Notes under the pieces: model-generated | Seen by the model: the letters and a program-made list of their open reading frames with translations, nothing else | What the model was told of the DNA's origin: nothing | Databases searched by the model: none | Shown: positions 989 through 19,457 of the stretch, in pieces | How the letters are laid out: every line of letters begins with the position of its first letter | Numbering within the stretch: the stretch's first letter is position 1 | Translations under genes and position numbers: made by a program | DNA from: a virus | Virus record (IMG/VR): IMGVR_UViG_3300040810_000205 | Coordinates: 1 to 30,464 of that record | Strand: one strand, 5' to 3' | DNA length: 30,464 nucleotides

Positions 989-1413
989 ACAATCGCTTTC
1001 GATACGAACAGATCAAAGCATTCTTCATCGACGGGGTGCCTGTTCCTCAAGGCTCGATGCGCACAGTCGGTCGCGGTGTAGTCATTCACAGCAACGCAAA
1101 GAAACTGAAAGAATGGCGCACGACTGTCGCATGGCAAGTGCGTGCGTTCTTTCAAGATGACGATCAGATTGATGATTCGATGCGTGTCGATCTGGAGTTC
1201 TATCTGCCACGACCAGCGAGTGTGAAGCGCATCTTCCCTCATCGCAAGCCTGATCTCGACAAGTTGATTCGCGCTGTGCTCGATGGTGTCACAGAGTCGA
1301 ACGCTGTCACAGATGATGCACGCTTCATCGAGATCAACGCAAAGAAGTTCTATGCGCGAGATCGAGTCGGTGTATTCGTCGAGTTCTATCGAGTCACAGA
1401 GGAGCAAGCATGA
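985..1413 (+). CDS. rusA: RusA-like Holliday junction resolvase
   Basis: Expected to cut four-way DNA junctions in the cytoplasm during phage recombination and before packaging. The 142-residue length fits the RusA family (about 120-140). The family signature is visible: an N-terminal strand with GVPVPQGS, then the catalytic block KPDLDKLIRAVLDG with Asp90 and Asp92, and a third acidic position at Asp110/Asp111 in VTDDARF. This reproduces the Asp70/Asp72/Asp91 spacing of E. coli RusA. The ATG at 985 overlaps the upstream stop (ATGA) and has AGGTGG a few bases before it. Its position beside a DNA methyltransferase and SSB fits a replication/recombination operon. Confidence in the family is high; activity is inferred. 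Confidence 0.92.
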   Translation: MNNRFRYEQIKAFFIDGVPVPQGSMRTVGRGVVIHSNAKKLKEWRTTVAWQVRAFFQDDDQIDDSMRVDLEFYLPRPASVKRIFPHRKPDLDKLIRAVLDGVTESNAVTDDARFIEINAKKFYARDRVGVFVEFYRVTEEQA

Positions 1414-2489
1414 TGGACACGCTCTTCGAGATCACCAAGACACCTTACGACAAAGCCATGGCAAAGCGAATCAAGATGCGCAATGGCCTAACTGCTGTAT
1501 CGACATTCTCAGGCTGCGGCGGTTCTTCACTTGGCTTGAAACAGTCGGGCTGGTATGTGCCCTACGCAGTCGAGTTCATCGAGAGTGCTCGCGAGACATA
1601 TGAAGCGAACTTCCCTGACACATTCGTCGACAGTCGAGACATCAGAGACATCAGCGGTGCTGACATCTTGAAGCGACTCGATCTCGACATCGGAGAACTT
1701 GATCTGTTTGAAGGCTCGCCTCCGTGTTCATCGTTCAGCAGCGCGAACGTCAGCAAAGACGCACGCATCGGCTCGATGAAAGTGAAGTCGTACAGCGATG
1801 GCGTCGAGCAGACGACAGATGATCTGTTCGATGAATGGCTGCGACTCGTGGACGAACTGCGACCTCGAGCGATCTTGGCTGAGAACGTGCCTGGCATGTT
1901 GCAGGAAGACGCGTATCCGTTTCTGCGTCATGTCACGAGCACTCTGCAGGCTCTTGACTATGTGCTGAACGTCGATGTCTACAAAGTCACGAACTATGGC
2001 TCTGCGACAGCGCGTAAGCGTCTGATCTTTCAGGGAATACGAAGAGATCAGAACGTCAAGCCTACGCCGCCTGCGATGCTCTCAGAGCGTTACACGCTGC
2101 GCGATGCGCTCGACACTCTGCCGGTGAAGATTCCCGATGATGAGATGAAGCACGCACGCAATCTCGCGCCGTCGTATCTACGCGAATGGAATCTGCTCGA
2201 ACCTGGCCAAGGCTCTGATGTGATCTTTCAGATCACGAAGGCTAACTTCGATCAGCCATTGCCGACGATCACAGTCGGCGGTTCGAAGTCAGCAGCAGAC
2301 CCGCTGCACCCTGTCGAGCCTCGCAAGTTCACAGCGACAGAAGTCGCATGGGTAACAGGCTTCCCTGCTGACTTCGTGCTCACAGGCACACCAGCGCAGC
2401 GTTATGAACGCATCGCCCGCGCTGTGCCACCACCGTTGTATTACGCTCACGGCGCACACATGGCGCAACTGTTAGAGAGGACGAAGTGA
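1410..2489 (+). CDS. C5-cytosine DNA methyltransferase
   Basis: Transfers a methyl group from S-adenosylmethionine to carbon 5 of cytosine in DNA. The 359-residue protein has the conserved motifs in order: motif I FSGCGGSSLG (33-42), motif IV with the catalytic Cys in SPPCSSFS (Cys106), motif VI ENVPGM (158-163), motif VIII ATARKRLIF (about 199-207), then the target-recognition region and the C-terminal motifs IX/X (TGFPADF and the Ala-rich end). The ATG at 1410 overlaps the upstream stop and is preceded by GAGGAG. No partner restriction enzyme is encoded nearby, so it is an orphan enzyme, probably protecting phage DNA from host restriction. The target sequence cannot be read from the protein. 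Confidence 0.95.
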   Translation: MMDTLFEITKTPYDKAMAKRIKMRNGLTAVSTFSGCGGSSLGLKQSGWYVPYAVEFIESARETYEANFPDTFVDSRDIRDISGADILKRLDLDIGELDLFEGSPPCSSFSSANVSKDARIGSMKVKSYSDGVEQTTDDLFDEWLRLVDELRPRAILAENVPGMLQEDAYPFLRHVTSTLQALDYVLNVDVYKVTNYGSATARKRLIFQGIRRDQNVKPTPPAMLSERYTLRDALDTLPVKIPDDEMKHARNLAPSYLREWNLLEPGQGSDVIFQITKANFDQPLPTITVGGSKSAADPLHPVEPRKFTATEVAWVTGFPADFVLTGTPAQRYERIARAVPPPLYYAHGAHMAQLLERTK

Positions 2490-3142
2490 AAGTTCCATCT
2501 AACTGGACGTTCAAGTCAGACGAAATCGCATCGAACTTCGATCAGCATGTGCGAGAACAGTTGCCATGGTATGACTTGGCGACAAGTGCTGTCGTGACGA
2601 TCGCTCGACATTACATTCACGACAAAGCGCGTGTGTATGACTTGGGTGCATCGACGGGAAACATAGGTCGAGCATTGTCAGATGTGCTGCGTGATCGAGA
2701 TGCACGCTTCACGCCAATCGAAGTCAGTCGAGAGATGGCCAAGTTGTATGAAGGCCCAGGTCAGATGATGAACAGAAGCATCATCGATGTCGAGCCCGAA
2801 GCGTTCGATCTTGCTGTTGCGTTTCTTGTGTTCATGTTCTTGCCACCTGATCAAGTCGAGCCAACATTACGACGATGGACGCAAGCAACAAAGCCAGGTG
2901 GCGCTTTCATCATCGTTGAAAGATTTCTTCCCCCCGGTGGGTATCTCAGCATCGTCAACAGTCGCTTGACGTTGACAGAGAAACTGAACGCTGGAGTCGA
3001 TCCGTTAGAGATCATCGAGAAAGAACTGTCACTTGCAGGAGCACAACGACCACTCGAGGCGTACATCGTAGAAATGTTCGGCGGCGTTGAGTTCTTTCGC
3101 TTCGGTGACTTCGCTGGCTACATCATCGAGCGTGAACGATGA
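2486..3142 (+). CDS. Class I SAM methyltransferase, CmoA-like
   Basis: A 218-residue Rossmann-fold methyltransferase. The N-terminus (WTF, then SNFDQHVREQLPWYD) and motif I YDLGASTG (51-58), the acidic second strand, FLVFMFLPP and KPGGAFIIVERF follow the order seen in CmoA, the enzyme that makes carboxy-SAM for the cmo5U34 modification of tRNA wobble uridine. The C-terminal FRFGDFAG also matches the CmoA end (FNFGSLVA). The start is GTG at 2486 in a GTGA overlap, with AGAGAGG upstream. No CmoB partner or tRNA gene is visible in the window. The SAM-binding fold is secure; the CmoA-like assignment is from remembered family pattern, and it could instead be another phage methyltransferase. Confidence 0.8.
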   Translation: MKVPSNWTFKSDEIASNFDQHVREQLPWYDLATSAVVTIARHYIHDKARVYDLGASTGNIGRALSDVLRDRDARFTPIEVSREMAKLYEGPGQMMNRSIIDVEPEAFDLAVAFLVFMFLPPDQVEPTLRRWTQATKPGGAFIIVERFLPPGGYLSIVNSRLTLTEKLNAGVDPLEIIEKELSLAGAQRPLEAYIVEMFGGVEFFRFGDFAGYIIERER

Positions 3143-3525: not shown

Positions 3526-3805
3526 TCAAGAGATACTGCGTATGAGTAAGCGTCAACGCGATCAGTTGTCGAGACTGTTGATGGATTCGATCGTTGAACT
3601 TGGCACAACGCGCATCACGGCAAGTCTTATGGCAGAAAGTGCGATCGAGAAGCGCAAGCAACTTGCACGAATCGAGACAGAGCAGAAAGGCCTGCATGTC
3701 AGCATCGAGATGATCGAAGCAAGCGAACTGCTTGAAGCAATGCCGCACGAAGATGCAACAGTCACAGCGCGTCGCAGGCGAGATTTGCTTGAGGCGGTGC
3801 GTTGA
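3500..3805 (+). CDS. Hypothetical small helical protein, 101 aa
   Basis: The chosen ATG at 3500 has a strong ribosome binding site (GAGAGGAAACG) and makes the gene overlap its neighbour by 26 bases; an ATG at 3544 is the alternative but has a weaker site. The product is helical, basic at the start (MSKRQRDQLSRLL) and rich in Glu/Lys/Arg, ending with ARRRRDLLEAVR. No domain is recognised. Coupling to the WhiB gene downstream (TGATG) suggests co-expression. The function is unknown. Confidence 0.65.
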   Translation: MRPYRVPSSQEILRMSKRQRDQLSRLLMDSIVELGTTRITASLMAESAIEKRKQLARIETEQKGLHVSIEMIEASELLEAMPHEDATVTARRRRDLLEAVR

Positions 3806-4305
3806 TGAATCTGTTCGCAACTGATCACCCATCATGGATGGACAGGGCTGCTTGCCATGGTCTTGGTGACTTGTTTTACACAGAGTCGAAAGAAGACGAA
3901 GGGCACATGCGTCAAGCAAAGCGCGTTTGTGCTTCGTGTGCTGTGCGTCTTGATTGTTTGTCATATGCGCTTGAACGTCGAGAACGTCACGGCATATGGG
4001 GTGGGTTGTCGTCGCACGAACGACGCAACATGCACAAACGCGAAAACAAAAACAGCAGCATCGATCGAGTCGAGATCGAGCGAGTCGTTGAAGTGCTGCT
4101 GTTCGATAATCAACGTGGCTTTCAGTCGTATCAGCGACTCAACGCATTCGAGAAAGCCATTGTGATTCGCATACTCGTTCATCAGCATCGATGGACGCAG
4201 ACAATGATCGGCCGTCACCTGCGCATGAATGGTGTAAGTGCCGCAACTAAGTATCACGCAGCATTAGACGCTGGTGATGTCAATCTGTTGAAGGAGATCG
4301 CATGA
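3805..4305 (+). CDS. whiB: WhiB-family iron-sulphur transcriptional regulator
   Basis: WhiB proteins are found in actinobacteria and their phages; they bind a 4Fe-4S cluster and usually act with the principal sigma factor. The four cluster cysteines are present at Cys17, Cys42, Cys45 and Cys51, followed by the family turn GIWGG (63-67) and a basic stretch. The start is the ATG at 3805, overlapping the previous stop (TGATG); a TTG three bases earlier is possible. At 166 residues it is roughly twice the minimal phage WhiB length: residues about 85-166 form an extra domain with a helix-turn-helix look (QTMIGRHLRMNGVS). It probably tunes host or phage transcription. The family call is very secure; the role is inferred. 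Confidence 0.93.
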   Translation: MNLFATDHPSWMDRAACHGLGDLFYTESKEDEGHMRQAKRVCASCAVRLDCLSYALERRERHGIWGGLSSHERRNMHKRENKNSSIDRVEIERVVEVLLFDNQRGFQSYQRLNAFEKAIVIRILVHQHRWTQTMIGRHLRMNGVSAATKYHAALDAGDVNLLKEIA

Positions 4306-10576: not shown

Positions 10577-12153
10577 TGCTTCGCAATCTGTTCAATCCTC
10601 GAGAGAGCGAACGTGCGCTGTCTTATCAGTCGCTCTTCGCTGCTGGTGCTGACATCGCGCCTCGCACGTGGGCAGGCACAGTCGTCAATCAAGACACCTC
10701 TCTGAAACTAGGCACCGTCTATGCGTGCGTGCGTCTTCTGTCTGACACGATCTCGACGTTGCCGGCTGACACATTCATTCGACGCGACGGCGATCGCGTA
10801 CCGTTTAGGCCTCGTCCAGCATGGGTGACACAACCTGACATTGGCGTGAGTCGAGAAGATCACTTGCAGCAAGTCATGGTGTCGCTGCTGATCGACGGCA
10901 ATGCATTCATCAGAATCTTTCGCAATCCTCGAGGCGAAGTTGCTGCGCTTGTCGTGCTCGATCCGTCTCGTGTGAAAGTGCAACGCAATCGAGAGACACG
11001 CGAAGTCGAGTTCGTGTACGAAGACAAGACTGTCATTCCTCGTCGCGAGATGCTTCACATCACCGAACTTCGCAAGCCAGGTTCGTTGCGTGGTGTGTCT
11101 CGAATAGATGAAGTGAAGCAGACACTTGGCCTTGCTGCTGCGCTCGAAGAGTTCAGCGCACGCTTCTTCGGTCAAGGCTCTGTCATGTCAGGCTTGATCG
11201 AGACGCCAGCGATGATGAACAGCGAGCAAGCGATCGAACTAAAGAACGCTTTCGAATCGACACATAAGGGCGTCAACAAGTCACATCGCATCGGCGTGCT
11301 CGGCGGCGGTGCGAAGTTCACGAAGACAAGCATCGATCCTGATGAAGCACAGATGCTCGAATCTCGACAGTTCGCTGTCGAAGAGATCGCTCGCATCTTT
11401 CGCGTGCCGCTTCACTTGCTGCAAGTTGCGACGCCAGGTGCGATGTCGTATGCGTCCGTCGAGCAGAATGCGATTCAGTTTGCGCAATACACACTCAGGC
11501 CGTATGTGTCGAAACTTGAAACAGCCTATTCTTCACTCATTCCATCAGAGGGCTTCTTACGCTTCAATCTTGATGCGATCTTGCGTGGCGATCTGCAAAC
11601 AAGATTCAGCGCATACTCAACAGCAATGCAATCAGGTTTCTTATCGATCAATGACATTCATCGACTCGAGGACATGCGTCCAGTCGATGGAGGCGATGAA
11701 TATCGCGTGCCACTTGCGAATGTGAATCTGGGTGCAGCAAACATTGTTGAAACTGAGAAGCGCGTACTCATGGCGCAGCGTTTGATTCTTGCTGGCTTTG
11801 ATCCAAGTCAAGTTATGCAAGCAGTCGGCTTACCTAATGTTGCCCACACAGGGCTGCCATCTGTGCAGTTGCAGGGCGTCGCACAGATCGACCCTGAAGA
11901 CCCCGAGTCTGTTTATCCTGTTCGCGATCTCGAACCTGAAGACTTCACGATCGCCATTCGAGAAGCAATCAACACAATGCAACCTCCTGTCGTGAATGTG
12001 CATGTGCCAGAAACTCGACAAGATAAGCAGCGAGCACGCATTCGCAAGATCGAACGCGACGATCAAGGCAACATCGTGAAGATTCACGACGAACAGTCGA
12101 CAAGCGTCGAACGTGACGATCATGGAAACATCACAGGCATCGTGGAGGACTAA
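10576..12153 (+). CDS. Portal protein (HK97 family)
   Basis: Forms the twelve-fold ring at one capsid vertex through which DNA enters and leaves. The 525-residue protein has the HK97 gp3-type order: SLKLGTVYACVRLLSDTIST near residue 41, LLIDGNAFIRI, LDPSRVKV, a central GVSRIDEVKQTLGLA and RFFGQG, the VEEIARIFRVPLHLLQ segment, and LRPYVSKLETA followed by the RFNLDAILRGD strand. The C-terminus carries a short duplicated motif (IERDDQGNI and VERDDHGNI). The TGATG overlap and its place before the protease and capsid genes support the assignment. The C-terminal duplication is probably a flexible tail. Confidence 0.95.
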   Translation: MLRNLFNPRESERALSYQSLFAAGADIAPRTWAGTVVNQDTSLKLGTVYACVRLLSDTISTLPADTFIRRDGDRVPFRPRPAWVTQPDIGVSREDHLQQVMVSLLIDGNAFIRIFRNPRGEVAALVVLDPSRVKVQRNRETREVEFVYEDKTVIPRREMLHITELRKPGSLRGVSRIDEVKQTLGLAAALEEFSARFFGQGSVMSGLIETPAMMNSEQAIELKNAFESTHKGVNKSHRIGVLGGGAKFTKTSIDPDEAQMLESRQFAVEEIARIFRVPLHLLQVATPGAMSYASVEQNAIQFAQYTLRPYVSKLETAYSSLIPSEGFLRFNLDAILRGDLQTRFSAYSTAMQSGFLSINDIHRLEDMRPVDGGDEYRVPLANVNLGAANIVETEKRVLMAQRLILAGFDPSQVMQAVGLPNVAHTGLPSVQLQGVAQIDPEDPESVYPVRDLEPEDFTIAIREAINTMQPPVVNVHVPETRQDKQRARIRKIERDDQGNIVKIHDEQSTSVERDDHGNITGIVED

Positions 12154-12506
12154 TGGCGCTCAATGACAATGGATTGAACAGTTTCATCTCTGGACTCACA
12201 GATGTTGCGGCCTATGCAAGTTTGCACACCGCTGAACCTTCAGCAGCAGGCAGCAACGAAGTGTCTGGTGGATCATATGTTCGCAAGGCAATCTCATGGG
12301 CTGCTGCATCATCGGGATCACGTTCAACTGATGCAGACATCGACTTCGATGTTCCTAGCAGCACCACAGTCGCCTACATCGGATACTGGTCTGCAAGCAG
12401 TGGAGGAACTTTCTATGGATCGCGTGCTCTTGATGCGAGTCAAACTTTCTCCAATGCAGGAACATTCACTATCGCAGCAGGGAATCTTTCTGAGTCTGTG
12501 TCATAA
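12153..12506 (+). CDS. Putative structural protein, LHTAEP-type beta domain, 117 aa
   Basis: The ATG overlaps the portal stop (TAATG). The sequence has the recurring pattern of a small phage structural family: NDNGLNSFI, then YASLHTAEPSAAGSNEVSGG, SYVRKAISW, a DIDFDVP strand and TVAYIGYWSA before a final FTIAAGNL. Members are usually annotated as tail-fibre-like or minor structural proteins. The all-beta, Ser/Gly/Ala-rich composition fits an outer virion decoration. It sits between portal and protease, an unusual place for a tail gene, so a head-fibre or head-decoration role is equally possible. Family recognition is moderate and no binding target is known. Confidence 0.65.
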   Translation: MALNDNGLNSFISGLTDVAAYASLHTAEPSAAGSNEVSGGSYVRKAISWAAASSGSRSTDADIDFDVPSSTTVAYIGYWSASSGGTFYGSRALDASQTFSNAGTFTIAAGNLSESVS

Positions 12507-12509
12507 GTC

Positions 12510-13097
12510 ATGGCTGGCTTATTCACTCTCGACAGCGACACTCTAGGAATTCTCGACACATCAGTTCTAGGCGGATTCGGAACTGACTTCTTCGACACGC
12601 AATCGACTTCAGCCTTCGCGATAACAGAAACAGTCACACTCACAGCATCAAGCATCACAGTCGCAAGCAGCAGCATCTCTGTGACATCGACTGCGACGAT
12701 GTTTGCATCAAGCAATACGTCAGCAACATCGAGCGAATCTGTTGTCTCTACGAGCACACTCAAAGCCAGCAGCGTCAGCAGCAGCATCTCAACTTATTCG
12801 ATTACAACAGCATCACCACCGTCATCGAATGTCGTTGTCGCTGGTGATGCTCGACATCTCAAATATCTGTTGCCAGACAGAAAGCAAGAACACTTTACGG
12901 CGTCTAGCATCAATAGATCGCGAAACACATACACGATCAAGTCAACGATCAAACTTGCGACTCGAAGTATCAGCAAGATTGAAAGTCGCGCAACGATCTA
13001 TGCCACACACGCATTGCACCCAGTTGTCATTACGATCGATAAACAACAGATCAGGCAACAGCGTGAAGAGGAACTTCTCTTGTTGGAGATCATATGA
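12510..13097 (+). CDS. Ser/Thr-rich structural protein, 195 aa
   Basis: Residues about 33-110 are dominated by Ser, Thr, Ala and Val (for example ASSSISVTSTATMFASS), giving an extended mucin-like or beta-fibre segment. The N-terminus (FTLDSDTLGILDTSVLGGFG) resembles attachment segments of small phage structural proteins. The C-terminal third is basic and helical at its end (DKQQIRQQREEELLLLEII). No enzyme motif is present. Its place between head genes suggests a virion protein, and the Ser/Thr tract would be a natural acceptor for the glycosyltransferases encoded 3.5 kb downstream (inference). The stop overlaps the next ATG. Confidence 0.6.
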   Translation: MAGLFTLDSDTLGILDTSVLGGFGTDFFDTQSTSAFAITETVTLTASSITVASSSISVTSTATMFASSNTSATSSESVVSTSTLKASSVSSSISTYSITTASPPSSNVVVAGDARHLKYLLPDRKQEHFTASSINRSRNTYTIKSTIKLATRSISKIESRATIYATHALHPVVITIDKQQIRQQREEELLLLEII

Positions 13098-13810
13098 CCA
13101 TCAGCAGCACACGATACACAGTCGGCACAGCAACGATCGAACTTGCTGCACCTTCTGTCGATCCGCAACGTGTGACGATCACGAATCTGCAACCTGAACC
13201 GAATGCTGAATCTCTCGCTCGTGATGGGTATGTGTTCGTCGCTGCTGATCGTTTCACTATCTCGAACAATGGCACAGCACACTTGCAGATCACCACTGGC
13301 GAGCATGGTGCACAGATTCAGTTCTATGAGATCGTCGCATCTTCAAGCGCGATCTCTGCTGAACTGATCGAAGGAGCGACGTTCGGTAGTGCAACTGCTG
13401 TGCCGTCGTACAACTTGAACAGAAACAGCAGTCGAGTCGCGTCGAGCACTCTCAGCGCAGCAACAGCAGTCAGCGGTGGAACAGTCATCAGCGAAGAGTT
13501 CGTGCCAGCGAGTAATCAATCCGCTGGCGGTTATGCGTTCACGAAGATTCACACGCTCGAACCTTCCACGAGTTATGTCATGCGCTTCATCGATGTCGGC
13601 GGCAATGGTGCGACAGCGTTTCTACAACTAGGTTTCGCTGAGCAATACGACGGCGATCATGACGTCCATCTGAATAACAGCGCAGGCAGCGCATGGATAC
13701 TTGCAGCAGGACAGACATTCAATCAACTGCTGTACGCAAGTGAGTCAATCAACGCACGCACAGAATCGCAAGAATGCGATGTCGCAGTTCTGCGGCAGGT
13801 GCAGCAGTAA
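13094..13810 (+). CDS. Beta-rich virion protein, possible head decoration or fibre
   Basis: The 238-residue product starts in an ATGA overlap. It consists of alternating strands: an N-terminal domain (RVTITNLQPEPNAESLARDG, then ADRFTISNNGTAHLQI) and a second domain that begins SYNLNRNSSRVASSTL and continues TVISEEFVPASNQ, SYVMRFIDVGGNG and HDVHLNNSAG. The pattern of the second domain, with NLNR-S followed by a beta-sandwich, recurs in phage head/tail decoration proteins. It precedes the protease gene with a TAATG overlap. A structural role is likely; whether head or tail cannot be settled from sequence. Confidence 0.6.
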   Translation: MTISSTRYTVGTATIELAAPSVDPQRVTITNLQPEPNAESLARDGYVFVAADRFTISNNGTAHLQITTGEHGAQIQFYEIVASSSAISAELIEGATFGSATAVPSYNLNRNSSRVASSTLSAATAVSGGTVISEEFVPASNQSAGGYAFTKIHTLEPSTSYVMRFIDVGGNGATAFLQLGFAEQYDGDHDVHLNNSAGSAWILAAGQTFNQLLYASESINARTESQECDVAVLRQVQQ

Positions 13811-15145: not shown

Positions 15146-16342
15146 ATGTCGGATTACATCAAGAGGCAGCATGAAGAGCGTTCTCGCGCTTACGAGGCGG
15201 CCAAGGAGATCATGGATCTGGCTGCCAGCGAGAATCGCGAACTGTCTGCCGACGAAGAGCAGTCTGTTCAGGCTGCGTTTGCTGACATGGATCGTCGCGG
15301 ATCGATCATCACCGAGATGATCTCGCAGGAGCGTCGTGACGCCGAGATCGCTGATGCGGTTCGCGGCTTCGAAGATGTTGCTCGCCCCGATGAGTCTGTG
15401 CAGGTTGCAGAGGTCAACGATGTTGACATCATTCGCTCTCTCGCTCGTGGCGAGATGCGCAGCGCAACGTTCGAGCAGCGCGACGTTACGAAGGGCAGCA
15501 CCGGCGCACCAGTGCCTACGTCCTTCTACGATCAGGTCCTCTACCTCGCTCGCGCGGTGGGACCCATGCTCGATGTCGCCACTGTTCTCAACACCGCCGG
15601 TGGCGAGAACCTGCAGATTCCGTCGCTGTCTGCATACAGCACTGGAACTGTCACCTCCGAAGCATCAACGATCGGCGAGTCTGATCCGACGATGAACGCG
15701 TTCGTCACTCTCAGCGCGTACAAGTATTCCTTCCTCACTCAGGTCTCGACCGAACTGATCGAGGACAGCGGAGTCGACATTCTCTCGCTGATCAGCACCA
15801 ACGTTGGTAACGCTCTGGGTTACGCGGTCAACACCGCCTTGACGACTGGGACCGGAACTGTCCAGCCCAAGGGCATCGTCGCCGCAGCCGGCTCTGGCAT
15901 CACGGGCGGCACCGGCGTATCGGGCGCCTTCACCTACGACAACCTCGTCGATCTGATCTACTCGACCGACGCGGCTGCTCGTATGCTTCCGGGCTTCGGT
16001 GTCATGGCTTCCGGCAACGCGATCGCTCAGATGCGCAAGTTGCAAGACGGCGCTGGACAGTACGTCTTCCAGCCGTCGCTCGCAGACGGCACGCCTGATC
16101 GCGTTCTCGGTTACCCGCTGATCGAGAACCCGGCAATGGCCTCTGTGGCAACTTCTGCCAAGAGCGTCATCGCTGGTCACTTCCCGTCGTACATCGCTCG
16201 CACCGTCGGTGGCATCCGCCTCGACCGTAGCGATGACTACGCCTTCGCAGATGGTCTGGTCACGTTCCGCGCGACGTTCCGCGTCGACGGCAACCTGCCT
16301 CAGACTTCTCATGTGAAGTATTTCGCTGGCGGCGCTTCTTAG
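15146..16342 (+). CDS. Major capsid protein (HK97 fold)
   Basis: Builds the icosahedral shell. The 398-residue protein has a charged helical N-terminal part (about 1-75, like the HK97 delta domain that the protease removes), a linker ending near residue 115 (TKGSTGAPVP), and the HK97-type core: YLARAVGPMLDVATVLNT, NLQIPSLSAYSTGTVTSEAS, YKYSFLTQVSTELIEDSGVD, NPAMASVATSAKSVIAGHF and IRLDRSDDYAFADGLVTFRA. AAAGGAG lies before the ATG at 15146. Codons end in C more often than in neighbouring genes (ACC, GTC, AAC), as expected for the most heavily expressed gene. It follows the protease gene and twin hairpins and is followed by a 13-bp hairpin. Confidence 0.96.
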   Translation: MSDYIKRQHEERSRAYEAAKEIMDLAASENRELSADEEQSVQAAFADMDRRGSIITEMISQERRDAEIADAVRGFEDVARPDESVQVAEVNDVDIIRSLARGEMRSATFEQRDVTKGSTGAPVPTSFYDQVLYLARAVGPMLDVATVLNTAGGENLQIPSLSAYSTGTVTSEASTIGESDPTMNAFVTLSAYKYSFLTQVSTELIEDSGVDILSLISTNVGNALGYAVNTALTTGTGTVQPKGIVAAAGSGITGGTGVSGAFTYDNLVDLIYSTDAAARMLPGFGVMASGNAIAQMRKLQDGAGQYVFQPSLADGTPDRVLGYPLIENPAMASVATSAKSVIAGHFPSYIARTVGGIRLDRSDDYAFADGLVTFRATFRVDGNLPQTSHVKYFAGGAS

Positions 16343-16360
16343 TCGTCAACGAACACAAAC

Positions 16361-16406
16361 GTCTGTCAGGGCGTCGGGGCGCGCAGGACTCGGCGCCCTG
16401 ACAGAC
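16361..16406. terminator. Perfect 13-bp hairpin after the capsid gene
   Basis: GTCTGTCAGGGCG (16361-16373) pairs perfectly with CGCCCTGACAGAC (16394-16406) around a 20-base GC-rich loop, 18 bases after the capsid stop. No T-run follows on +; the next bases are ACCCCACC. It may be a partial terminator that lowers expression of downstream genes relative to capsid, or a 3' stabiliser of the capsid message. Confidence 0.7.
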
Positions 16407-16432
16407 ACCCCACCTGCGCACAGAAAGAGAGA

Positions 16433-17674
16433 ATGATGTCGAATGCTGATCGACGTTCAGGGAACCCTGCTCGACGTTCCCCCGCATCTAGGACAACTGC
16501 TGATTCAAGCGAGATTCGCCGCACCATACTCTGGGCAAGCAACAGCCCCCACGCCTCAACAGGCTACGGCCAGCAAACCGCGCAAGTCACGAAGCGCCTC
16601 AAAGAAGACAAGCACGCGATCGCGATCGCGTCGAACTACGGACTAGAAGGCGCGACAACGATCTGGGAGAACATCAAAGTCTTCCCTCGAGGTTTCGATC
16701 TTCACAGCAACGATGTGATCCCAGCGCATCTCTTCGCATGGTCGCACGAGAATCAAGACGACAATCCGTTGCTGATCACGCTGTATGACACTTGGGTGTT
16801 CAAAGGCAAGCAATGGGACATGGTCGAGAAGATCGCATCATGGGTGCCAATCGATCACATGCCTTGTCCACCTGACGTTCTCGCATGGTGCAAGCGATCG
16901 AACGTCACACCGATTGCGATGAGTCGCTTCGGTGAAGAGATGCTGCGCAACGCTGACATCGACTGCTTCTACATTCCGCACGCGATCGAAGATGTGTTCA
17001 AGCCGACAGAGAAGATCACAACACCTGAACGAAACATGACGGGTCGAGAGATCATCGAGATCGATGAGTCGAAGTTCGTCGTAGGAATGAACTCCGCAAA
17101 CAAAGGCATCGTTCCGAATCGCAAGTCATTCCCTGAAGCGTTCCTCGCGTTCGCGATGTTCGCGCAGAAACACGATGATGCTGTGCTGTATCTGCACACA
17201 GAAGATCGCGGCGCGATGGGTGGAATAAATCTGCACGATCTCGCGCAAGCGTGCGGCATCAAAGATGAGCAGATGAAGTTCGTCGATCAGTACGCGTACC
17301 GTTCAGGAATGACACAAGAAGTTCTCGCAGCGATCTACACAGCGATGGACGTGTTCTTGCAACCGTCGATGGGTGAAGGCTTCGGCATTCCCGCGATTGA
17401 AGCGCAAGCATGTGGCACGCCTGTGATCATGAGCAACGCGACAGCACAAACAGAACTGTGCGGCGACGGCTGGCTAGTTGATGGTCAACCGTGGTGGGAC
17501 GCGATGCAGAAAGCATGGCTTGTGTCGCCTCGAGTCGCGAGCATCGTCGACGCTTTGCAACAGGCCTACGATCGAGGTCGAGCACGCAGCGACAAGGCGA
17601 TCGAGTTTGCATCGCAATACAACGCAGACTTCATCTTCGACAACTTCTGGCGACCAACGATCAAGGCGCTGTAA
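16433..17674 (+). CDS. Glycosyltransferase, GT4-like (GT-B fold)
   Basis: Transfers a sugar from a nucleotide-sugar donor. The 413-residue protein starts, after a basic Ser/Arg-rich stretch, with ILWASNSPHASTGYGQQTAQ, a Gly-rich acceptor-side loop, and has the donor-site hallmark GEGFGIPAIEAQACGTPVI near residue 313, containing the E-x7-E motif of GT4 enzymes. Preceding strands (VLYLHTEDRG, then VFLQPSMGEGFG) fit a GT-B fold. The start is one of two adjacent ATGs (16433 or 16436) behind AAAGAGAGA. It opens a three-gene cassette with a GT2-like enzyme and a methyltransferase inside the head-tail operon. The acceptor is unknown; virion protein or DNA base are both possible. Confidence 0.9.
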   Translation: MMSNADRRSGNPARRSPASRTTADSSEIRRTILWASNSPHASTGYGQQTAQVTKRLKEDKHAIAIASNYGLEGATTIWENIKVFPRGFDLHSNDVIPAHLFAWSHENQDDNPLLITLYDTWVFKGKQWDMVEKIASWVPIDHMPCPPDVLAWCKRSNVTPIAMSRFGEEMLRNADIDCFYIPHAIEDVFKPTEKITTPERNMTGREIIEIDESKFVVGMNSANKGIVPNRKSFPEAFLAFAMFAQKHDDAVLYLHTEDRGAMGGINLHDLAQACGIKDEQMKFVDQYAYRSGMTQEVLAAIYTAMDVFLQPSMGEGFGIPAIEAQACGTPVIMSNATAQTELCGDGWLVDGQPWWDAMQKAWLVSPRVASIVDALQQAYDRGRARSDKAIEFASQYNADFIFDNFWRPTIKAL

Positions 17675-18330
17675 TGATCGACGCGATGATCACGCCGATC
17701 TTGACTAAGCCTGATCTGCTGTATCGAATGATCGACAGCATCGATCATGACATCGAACATCTAGTCATCATCGATAACGGACAATGTGTTGATCGTGAAC
17801 TGCTCGACACTCGATGGAGGCATCACATCAAGCGCATGTCGCTGATCAGTATCCCAGCGAATCTTGGTGTCGCTGGTTCATGGAATCTCGGTATCAAGGC
17901 GACACCGTTCGCTCGATCATGGCTGATCTGTAACTTCGACATCAAGTGGCCGACAAGTTCGTTGCGCATGTTTGATGATCTGCAACGCTCAGACATGCTC
18001 GTTCTTTCAAACGGATCGCCAGAATGGTGCGCATTCATGCTCGGAGAAGATGTCGTCAAGACAGTCGGCTTATTCGATGAAGCACTACACCCTGCCTACT
18101 TCGAAGACAACGACTACGAACGACGCACACGACAGATGCAGTTCACAGTCATGCGCACAACAATTCCTGTGCATCATGACAACAGCAGCACATTGAACGC
18201 AGGCTATCGCGAGAAGAACGACTTCACGTTCGCTCAGAATCGAACCTACTACGAACGCAAAGTGTTTCGCTGCGACGACTCTGCAGGCGAATGGTCGTTG
18301 CGTCGTCGACGAGAACTAACGTGGGATTAG
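17674..18330 (+). CDS. Glycosyltransferase, GT2-like (GT-A fold)
   Basis: A 218-residue protein with the pattern of short GT2/rhamnosyltransferase-like enzymes: MIDAMITPILTKPDLL, HLVIIDNGQ, the acceptor-side SIPANLGVAGSWNLGI, the metal-site region ICNFDIKW (an NxD variant of DxD), and the closing block FMLGEDVVKTVGLFDEAL, HPAYFEDNDYERR. The start at 17674 overlaps the previous stop (TAATG); a longer frame from 17491 would be buried in the first glycosyltransferase. It probably adds a second sugar to the product of the upstream enzyme. Sugar and target are not predictable from the sequence. Confidence 0.87.
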   Translation: MIDAMITPILTKPDLLYRMIDSIDHDIEHLVIIDNGQCVDRELLDTRWRHHIKRMSLISIPANLGVAGSWNLGIKATPFARSWLICNFDIKWPTSSLRMFDDLQRSDMLVLSNGSPEWCAFMLGEDVVKTVGLFDEALHPAYFEDNDYERRTRQMQFTVMRTTIPVHHDNSSTLNAGYREKNDFTFAQNRTYYERKVFRCDDSAGEWSLRRRRELTWD

Positions 18331-18333
18331 AAC

Positions 18334-18867
18334 ATGGCGCACGCTGAACAGCGACACTTCTTCGAACAAGTACGCAATCGCTTTGCTGACTTCTTTCACG
18401 ACAAGAAAGTTCTCGACATCGGCTCTCTCAACATCAACGGCACAGCACGAGACTTCTTCACCAACTGCGACTACACAGGAGCAGACGTAGGCGAAGGTCC
18501 AGGAGTTGACATTGTGTGCGCCGGTGAAGACTTGCAGTTCGATGACAACAGTTTCGATGTTGTGCTGAGCGCAGAATGCTTCGAGCACAATCCTCAATGG
18601 ATTGCGACGTTCGCGAACATGATTCGCATGTCACGACATCTCGTGATTATGACTTGCGCGACAACAGGTCGAGCAGAACACGGAACACATCGAGCAACAC
18701 CTGGCGCATCACCACATACTGTTGGCTGGGATTACTACAAGAACCTGACAGAAGAAGACTTTCGTGAAGCATTCGATCTCGATGAACTGTTCACAGAACA
18801 CACTTTCGAAGTCAATCAACAGTCACATGATCTCTACTTCGTAGGCATCGTCAAGGAGAACGCATGA
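18334..18867 (+). CDS. SAM-dependent methyltransferase of the glycan cassette
   Basis: A 177-residue class I methyltransferase (Methyltransf_11 type). Motif I is KVLDIGSLNINGTARDF (about 25-41), followed by the acidic strand YTGADVGEGPGVDI, the AGEDLQFDDNSFDVVLSAEC block and FEHNPQW. It starts three bases after the second glycosyltransferase and overlaps the connector gene by four bases. Association with two glycosyltransferases suggests sugar O-methylation, but a protein or lipid target is possible. The fold is secure; the substrate is inferred from neighbourhood. Confidence 0.85.
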   Translation: MAHAEQRHFFEQVRNRFADFFHDKKVLDIGSLNINGTARDFFTNCDYTGADVGEGPGVDIVCAGEDLQFDDNSFDVVLSAECFEHNPQWIATFANMIRMSRHLVIMTCATTGRAEHGTHRATPGASPHTVGWDYYKNLTEEDFREAFDLDELFTEHTFEVNQQSHDLYFVGIVKENA

Positions 18868-19457
18868 CTCTGTACGCAAGCACAGCGCAGATCAAAGCCG
18901 CATTGCGGATCACCGATGATGTCGACGACTCGCTGATCTCAATGGCAGGCAGCGCAGCAAGCGAACTGATCGACGGTCATTGTCAACGCACCTTCGGCAC
19001 AGTAAGCGAGACACGCTACTTCGCAGCGCACGACTCTTACGTTCTCAACGTCGACGACATCGCAGGCACAGCACTCACGTTGCAAACATCAACGCTGTCT
19101 GATCAGGTGTACGACGTAACGTGGGCAGCAAAGGACTATCAACTAGAACCGTTGAACGCTGTGGCAGATGGACTGACTTGGCCGTACACTCGTATTCGTG
19201 CAGTGGACGACTATCTGTTCCCGACAGCGTATGGCGAGAGAACAGTCAAGATCACAGCAGTCTTCGGATTCCCAAGCATTCCAGCGAGCGTCACACAAGC
19301 AGCAATCATTCAGGCGAGTCGCATCTTCAAGCGCCTTGACTCACCACTTGGCATTGCAGGCTTTGGAGAGATGGGTGCGATGCGCGTGAGCAAAGGACTT
19401 GACCCTGATGTTGCTCAACTTGTGCAGCCTTACATTCGCAATCGAGGCGTGGCGTGA
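18864..19457 (+). CDS. Head-tail connector protein (gp6-like)
   Basis: Joins the portal to the tail. The 197-residue protein begins LYASTAQIKAALRITDDVDD, a helical pattern typical of HK97 gp6-type adaptors (DDSLISMAGSAASELIDGHC), followed by a strand region with RYFAAHDSYVLNVDDI and a C-terminal helical part (VTQAAIIQASRIFKRLDSPL, then LDPDVAQLVQPYIR). The ATG overlaps the methyltransferase stop (ATGA). It is the first conventional morphogenesis gene after the glycan cassette, so the cassette appears to be inserted between capsid and connector genes. Confidence 0.88.
   Translation: MTLYASTAQIKAALRITDDVDDSLISMAGSAASELIDGHCQRTFGTVSETRYFAAHDSYVLNVDDIAGTALTLQTSTLSDQVYDVTWAAKDYQLEPLNAVADGLTWPYTRIRAVDDYLFPTAYGERTVKITAVFGFPSIPASVTQAAIIQASRIFKRLDSPLGIAGFGEMGAMRVSKGLDPDVAQLVQPYIRNRGVA

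Follow-up and report, generated by a model that had tools for sequence, protein, structure and literature searches.

A few mycobacteriophages are known to have glycosylated capsids, and the modification has been discussed as an immune shield. It is established that phage-encoded glycosyltransferases (GTs) glycosylate the virions of Che8, Corndog and Myrna (PMC12363180, PMC11256854), and Che8 gp110 is reported to be essential for capsid glycosylation (Freeman et al. 2023, as related in PMC12363180). The 30,464-base virus record analysed here in full (hereafter the window) carries a cassette that appears, by analogy, to be of the same kind as the Che8 system, though with a different architecture and with GTs of no detectable homology. 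Both combine phage GTs with a methyltransferase domain, in Che8 within gp108-110, of which gp108 is a fusion of a GT2 and a TylF/Methyltransf_24 domain. However, the Che8 cluster lies near the right end of its genome whereas the window's cassette sits beside the capsid gene, and the four pairs compared with gp108-110 yielded hhalign probabilities below 10%. The initial annotation had taken the methyltransferase to make the cassette a candidate for a less described glycan system; given the Che8 fusion this is not supported, and the pairing of a methyltransferase with GTs is not new, as it is already present in phages phiPsal1, S-CBS4 and Zuko.

The closest cultured relative is phiPsal1 (MG835450), a Pontimonas phage with its own WhiB gene. 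Its genes 9-13 encode a major capsid protein, GT4, GT2, methyltransferase (43%, 41%, 40% and 56% identical to the window proteins, respectively) and neck protein in the same place as in the window, except that the methyltransferase gene lies between GT4 and GT2 on the opposite strand. These cassette genes are annotated in the record and left undiscussed in the accompanying paper. The same opposite-strand methyltransferase gene occurs inside the structural operon in the phiPsal1 branch (L002, L008, L170, L171, L173, L175 and L240), so that it either needs its own promoter or has been flipped. As the window encodes WhiB as well (3802-4305), this gene and the relationship to phiPsal1 point to an actinobacterial host; a search of GTDB contigs for the host gave only six matches, including Microbacteriaceae bins in whose phage contigs the cassette is absent. 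Gp14-16 of the Synechococcus phage S-CBS4 share the order GT4-GT2-methyltransferase (methyltransferase 56% and GT2 28% identical to the window), but the GT4 is only about 23% identical and the genes of this cyanophage lie between portal and capsid. The Microcystis phage Mae-JY09 has a GT4 (35-38%) and an NAD epimerase between its capsid and head-tail adaptor genes, but one gene separates capsid and GT4 and its capsid was not found as a relative; no methyltransferase of the window's family was found in it. In a partial literature search we found no description of a capsid-adjacent GT4 followed by a slot of exchanged genes. The features of the locus in the window are as follows:

15146-16342, + strand: HK97-fold major capsid protein, proposed acceptor (PF05065, E = 6.7e-54; phrog_10)
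16361-16406, + strand: RNA hairpin of 18 pairs after the capsid gene (MFE -39.8 kcal/mol, z -3.75)
16433-17674, + strand: GT4-type (GT-B) glycosyltransferase, proposed initiating enzyme (PF13692, 1.5e-12, 48.4 bits, cut-off 27; PF00534, 2e-12, 47.4 bits, cut-off 26.4; phrog_2170, 4e-37)
17674-18330, + strand: GT2-type (GT-A) glycosyltransferase, proposed to add the second sugar (phrog_29879 'galactosyl transferase', 1e-40; AlphaFold/Foldseek)
18334-18867, + strand: class I SAM methyltransferase, proposed to cap the glycan, swapped part of the cassette (phrog_32762, 1e-78; PF08241/PF13489, about 2e-6, above cut-off)
18864-19457, + strand: head-tail connector, downstream boundary of the slot (phrog_442, 1.9e-18; Pfam connector match below cut-off)

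The region thus reads protease, capsid, hairpin, GT4, GT2, methyltransferase, connector, tail terminator and major tail protein. All three enzyme genes have intact frames and significant family matches, confirming their presence between capsid and connector as first annotated. The GT4 stop and the GT2 start (ATG 17674) have one base in common, and the end of the methyltransferase gene shares 4 bases with the beginning of the connector gene; these overlaps suggest a single coupled transcript. This ATG is the most likely start of the GT2 gene, in preference to GTG 17491, which lies further upstream in the raw open reading frame. An alternative frame at 16443-16646 was rejected as a gene because relatives keep the GT4 frame there (RSGNPARR). 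With dN/dS of 0.09-0.22 against close relatives, all three enzymes are under purifying selection.

Judged by its sequence, the first enzyme belongs to the GT4 (GT-B) type, having a C-terminal nucleotide-sugar domain above cut-off and the E-x7-E nucleotide-sugar motif (EGFGIPAIE at residue 315). The second has no Pfam match in the window protein; its phiPsal1 orthologue passes PF00535. Its AlphaFold model (pLDDT 91) retrieves GT2 structures in Foldseek (E = 1e-8), with best matches to AvpGT, WrtF, GlfT2 and TarP, i.e., GT2 enzymes acting on polysaccharides, teichoic acid or natural products. The predicted fold and the acidic metal and catalytic motifs (invariant YFED.D; invariant residues D89, E144, D145 and D147) assign it to the GT2 (GT-A) type. 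The GT2 proteins of this group share the C-terminal tail W-x-L-x-x-R-R-R-x-x-[ST]-W-D (18292-18330 in the window), which is conserved and the codons of which overlap the start region of the next gene, and this tail region may serve as a recombination seam. The third enzyme is a class I SAM methyltransferase with a predicted Rossmann-like SAM fold (pLDDT 78, Foldseek E = 6e-6). The structure predictions proposed at the outset placed the GT2 among GT2 structures as anticipated, whereas neither structure nor sequence gave the methyltransferase a match specific to sugar methylation, and the fold does not show the substrate. In all the phage contexts inspected, its homologues adjoin genes for GTs or for sugar-nucleotide enzymes; these contexts are phiPsal1, S-CBS4, Zuko, LR745206 (RmlD, epimerase, GT11) and the relatives L009 and L010 (GT-D). 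This genomic association supports the earlier reading that the enzyme would act on a glycan. A second class I methyltransferase follows a C5 cytosine DNA methylase in the early region of the window (1410-3142).

The hairpin after the capsid gene had been described as 13 bp long; it is present, and its stem comprises 18 pairs. It is kept in the sister locus L091, where one pair has undergone a compensatory change from C-G to A-T. Terminator-type hairpins with a T-run also occur in the same place after the capsid gene in relatives without sugar genes, and for this reason the hairpin is assigned to the capsid gene and not to the cassette. It probably limits read-through into the cassette.

Comparison of related genomes drew on about 240 IMG/VR loci (80 fetched by GT4, 80 by the window's capsid and 80 by the phiPsal1 capsid), with genes labelled by profiles. 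GT4 was the next labelled gene in 60/60 distinct capsids that were found by capsid alone and had at least 500 bases downstream, and it was next to the capsid in 49 of the 60 from the phiPsal1-capsid branch. Over both branches, and counting the loci retrieved through GT4, the capsid gene is followed by GT4 in 156 of 166 distinct relatives; eight run from capsid through hairpin to connector and two have a GT2 only. In the capsid tree the cassette-less phages form two clades nested inside GT4-bearing ones, which indicates at least two losses; GT4 is the ancestral, near-universal neighbour of this capsid family, and a connector directly after the capsid a rare, derived arrangement. The proposed search for gain or loss of the block has thus revealed losses; the description of the block as inserted between capsid and connector is not supported, and a recent insertion was rejected on the basis of the capsid tree. 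Three phages without GT4 have 0.7-2.7 kb of unexplained sequence between protease and capsid (L239:4323-6980, L216:6271-6971 and L218:5790-6986); this interval lacks long sense-strand open reading frames and may contain antisense genes.

Behind the near-constant GT4 the gene content changes. Between GT4 and connector there are 116 distinct slots with a median length of 1.5 kb; together they comprise 36 protein families and 48 architectures, counting sense-strand open reading frames only; those on the reverse strand are probably shadows. Assigned families belong to sugar chemistry, i.e., glycosyltransferases, sugar-nucleotide enzymes, an acyltransferase and methyltransferases. They include NAD epimerase/dehydratase (PF01370), Gfo/Idh/MocA (PF01408), hexapeptide acyltransferase (PF00132), cytidylyltransferase (PF01467), GT17, GT2s and several methyltransferases (among them Methyltransf_24/RMNT_CmcI-like), besides an NTP_transf_3 match below cut-off and a weak sialyltransferase-like match; the family to which the window's methyltransferase belongs occurs in a minority of slots. 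The relative L011 is 88% identical in DNA to the window over 16226-18314, shows no similarity across the methyltransferase and is 94% identical again from 18854 on. Three other genes, including a cytidylyltransferase, replace the methyltransferase there, two of which recur together in other relatives, and the breakpoints of the swap fall at the GT2 end and the connector start. Exchange of slot genes by recombination at the borders, with GT4 as the fixed part, would be the best explanation of this pattern. A second flexible head-gene site is the ~1.9 kb block at 11911-13810, which contains three Ser/Thr-rich genes (a Gp80-like fibre protein with PF23140, a 33% Ser/Thr protein and a phrog_5335 protein) and is missing in L091, otherwise >80% identical.

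The reading that best accommodates these observations, to which we assign a probability of about 0.72, is a late virion-glycosylation locus in which GT4 initiates, GT2 extends and the methyltransferase caps a glycan, with the capsid as the likeliest acceptor; it upholds the initial interpretation of the three genes as one glycan cassette acting on the virion. Transcription would proceed from the capsid gene through the hairpin into the coupled enzyme genes, so that the enzymes would be made when the capsid protein is. GT4 would draw on a host sugar nucleotide to place a first sugar on one of the virion proteins, most probably the major capsid protein, GT2 would add a second sugar, and the methyltransferase would cap the product. 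Border recombination, by swapping the genes between GT4 and connector, would give related phages a common first step and a different outer glycan.

The major capsid protein is favoured as the putative acceptor because the GT4-capsid adjacency is fixed. The alternative that these enzymes add their sugars to a tail component instead (the tube, the tape measure or a fibre) and tune adsorption is unlikely, although it retains some footing: mycobacteriophages glycosylate the tail tube as well as the capsid (PMC12363180), and the slot sits between head and tail genes. GT4-capsid co-divergence (r 0.92) is no stronger than GT4-portal, and in matched sets of 18 it does not beat GT4-tail and so does not separate the two acceptors. 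Parallel loss of Ser/Thr in the cassette-less clades affects two capsid columns, within residue stretches 241-270 and 326-345 of the window protein, but connector, tail tube and portal each show just as many such columns, and the loss is not specific to the capsid protein. What tells against a tail acceptor is that GT4 is locked to the capsid gene across the relatives, while the divergence of tail genes is less closely tied to that of the capsid. The Ser/Thr-rich proteins encoded upstream of the capsid (12153-13810), an acceptor class named in the initial annotation, are not required, as L091 has the same cassette without those genes; of these genes, the one at 13094 alone has a relative in the GT-positive L170 and L199.

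Modification of the host cell envelope for superinfection exclusion or receptor masking, as by Gtr-type systems, seems improbable. GTs of freshwater actinophages have been read as serving superinfection exclusion or DNA protection (PMC10202952), and polyrhamnose walls as well as numerous GTs are documented for hosts such as Pontimonas (PMC6106888). However, the block has no flippase or membrane GT, no membrane segment was found in GT4, GT2 or the methyltransferase, no Gtr-like membrane protein occurs among the slot families scanned in relatives, and genes in a late structural position come too late to serve exclusion. Placement of the sugars on phage DNA to block restriction, the other role proposed for such GTs, is very improbable despite the C5 cytosine methylase at 1410-2489, since that enzyme's product is 5mC and not a hydroxylated base, no base-hydroxylating enzyme occurs among the Pfam-scanned window proteins or in the phiPsal1 annotation, and capsid linkage and slot diversity would be left unexplained.

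The cassette is ordinary in kind, and what is unusual is its architecture, that of a probable virion glycan locus which is linked to the capsid gene and recombines. With GT4 nearly fixed beside the capsid gene and an exchange of the genes that follow, it is probable that these viruses cover their own particles in sugars that vary. More tentatively, and with the odds somewhat against it, the locus may act as a virion 'serotype' determinant, in which a capsid-locked GT4 and a swapped tailoring cartridge continually change the head glycan in a large, uncultured actinophage group; the selection would come from particle recognition in the environment and not from antibodies. In a large group of environmental phages, which presumably have no contact with antibodies, a GT next to the capsid gene is close to obligatory. 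The natural role of virion sugars thereby becomes testable, with the cassette-less relatives as natural controls, and a capsid-adjacent GT with exchanged sugar cassettes speaks against annotating such GTs, as is usually done, as DNA protection.
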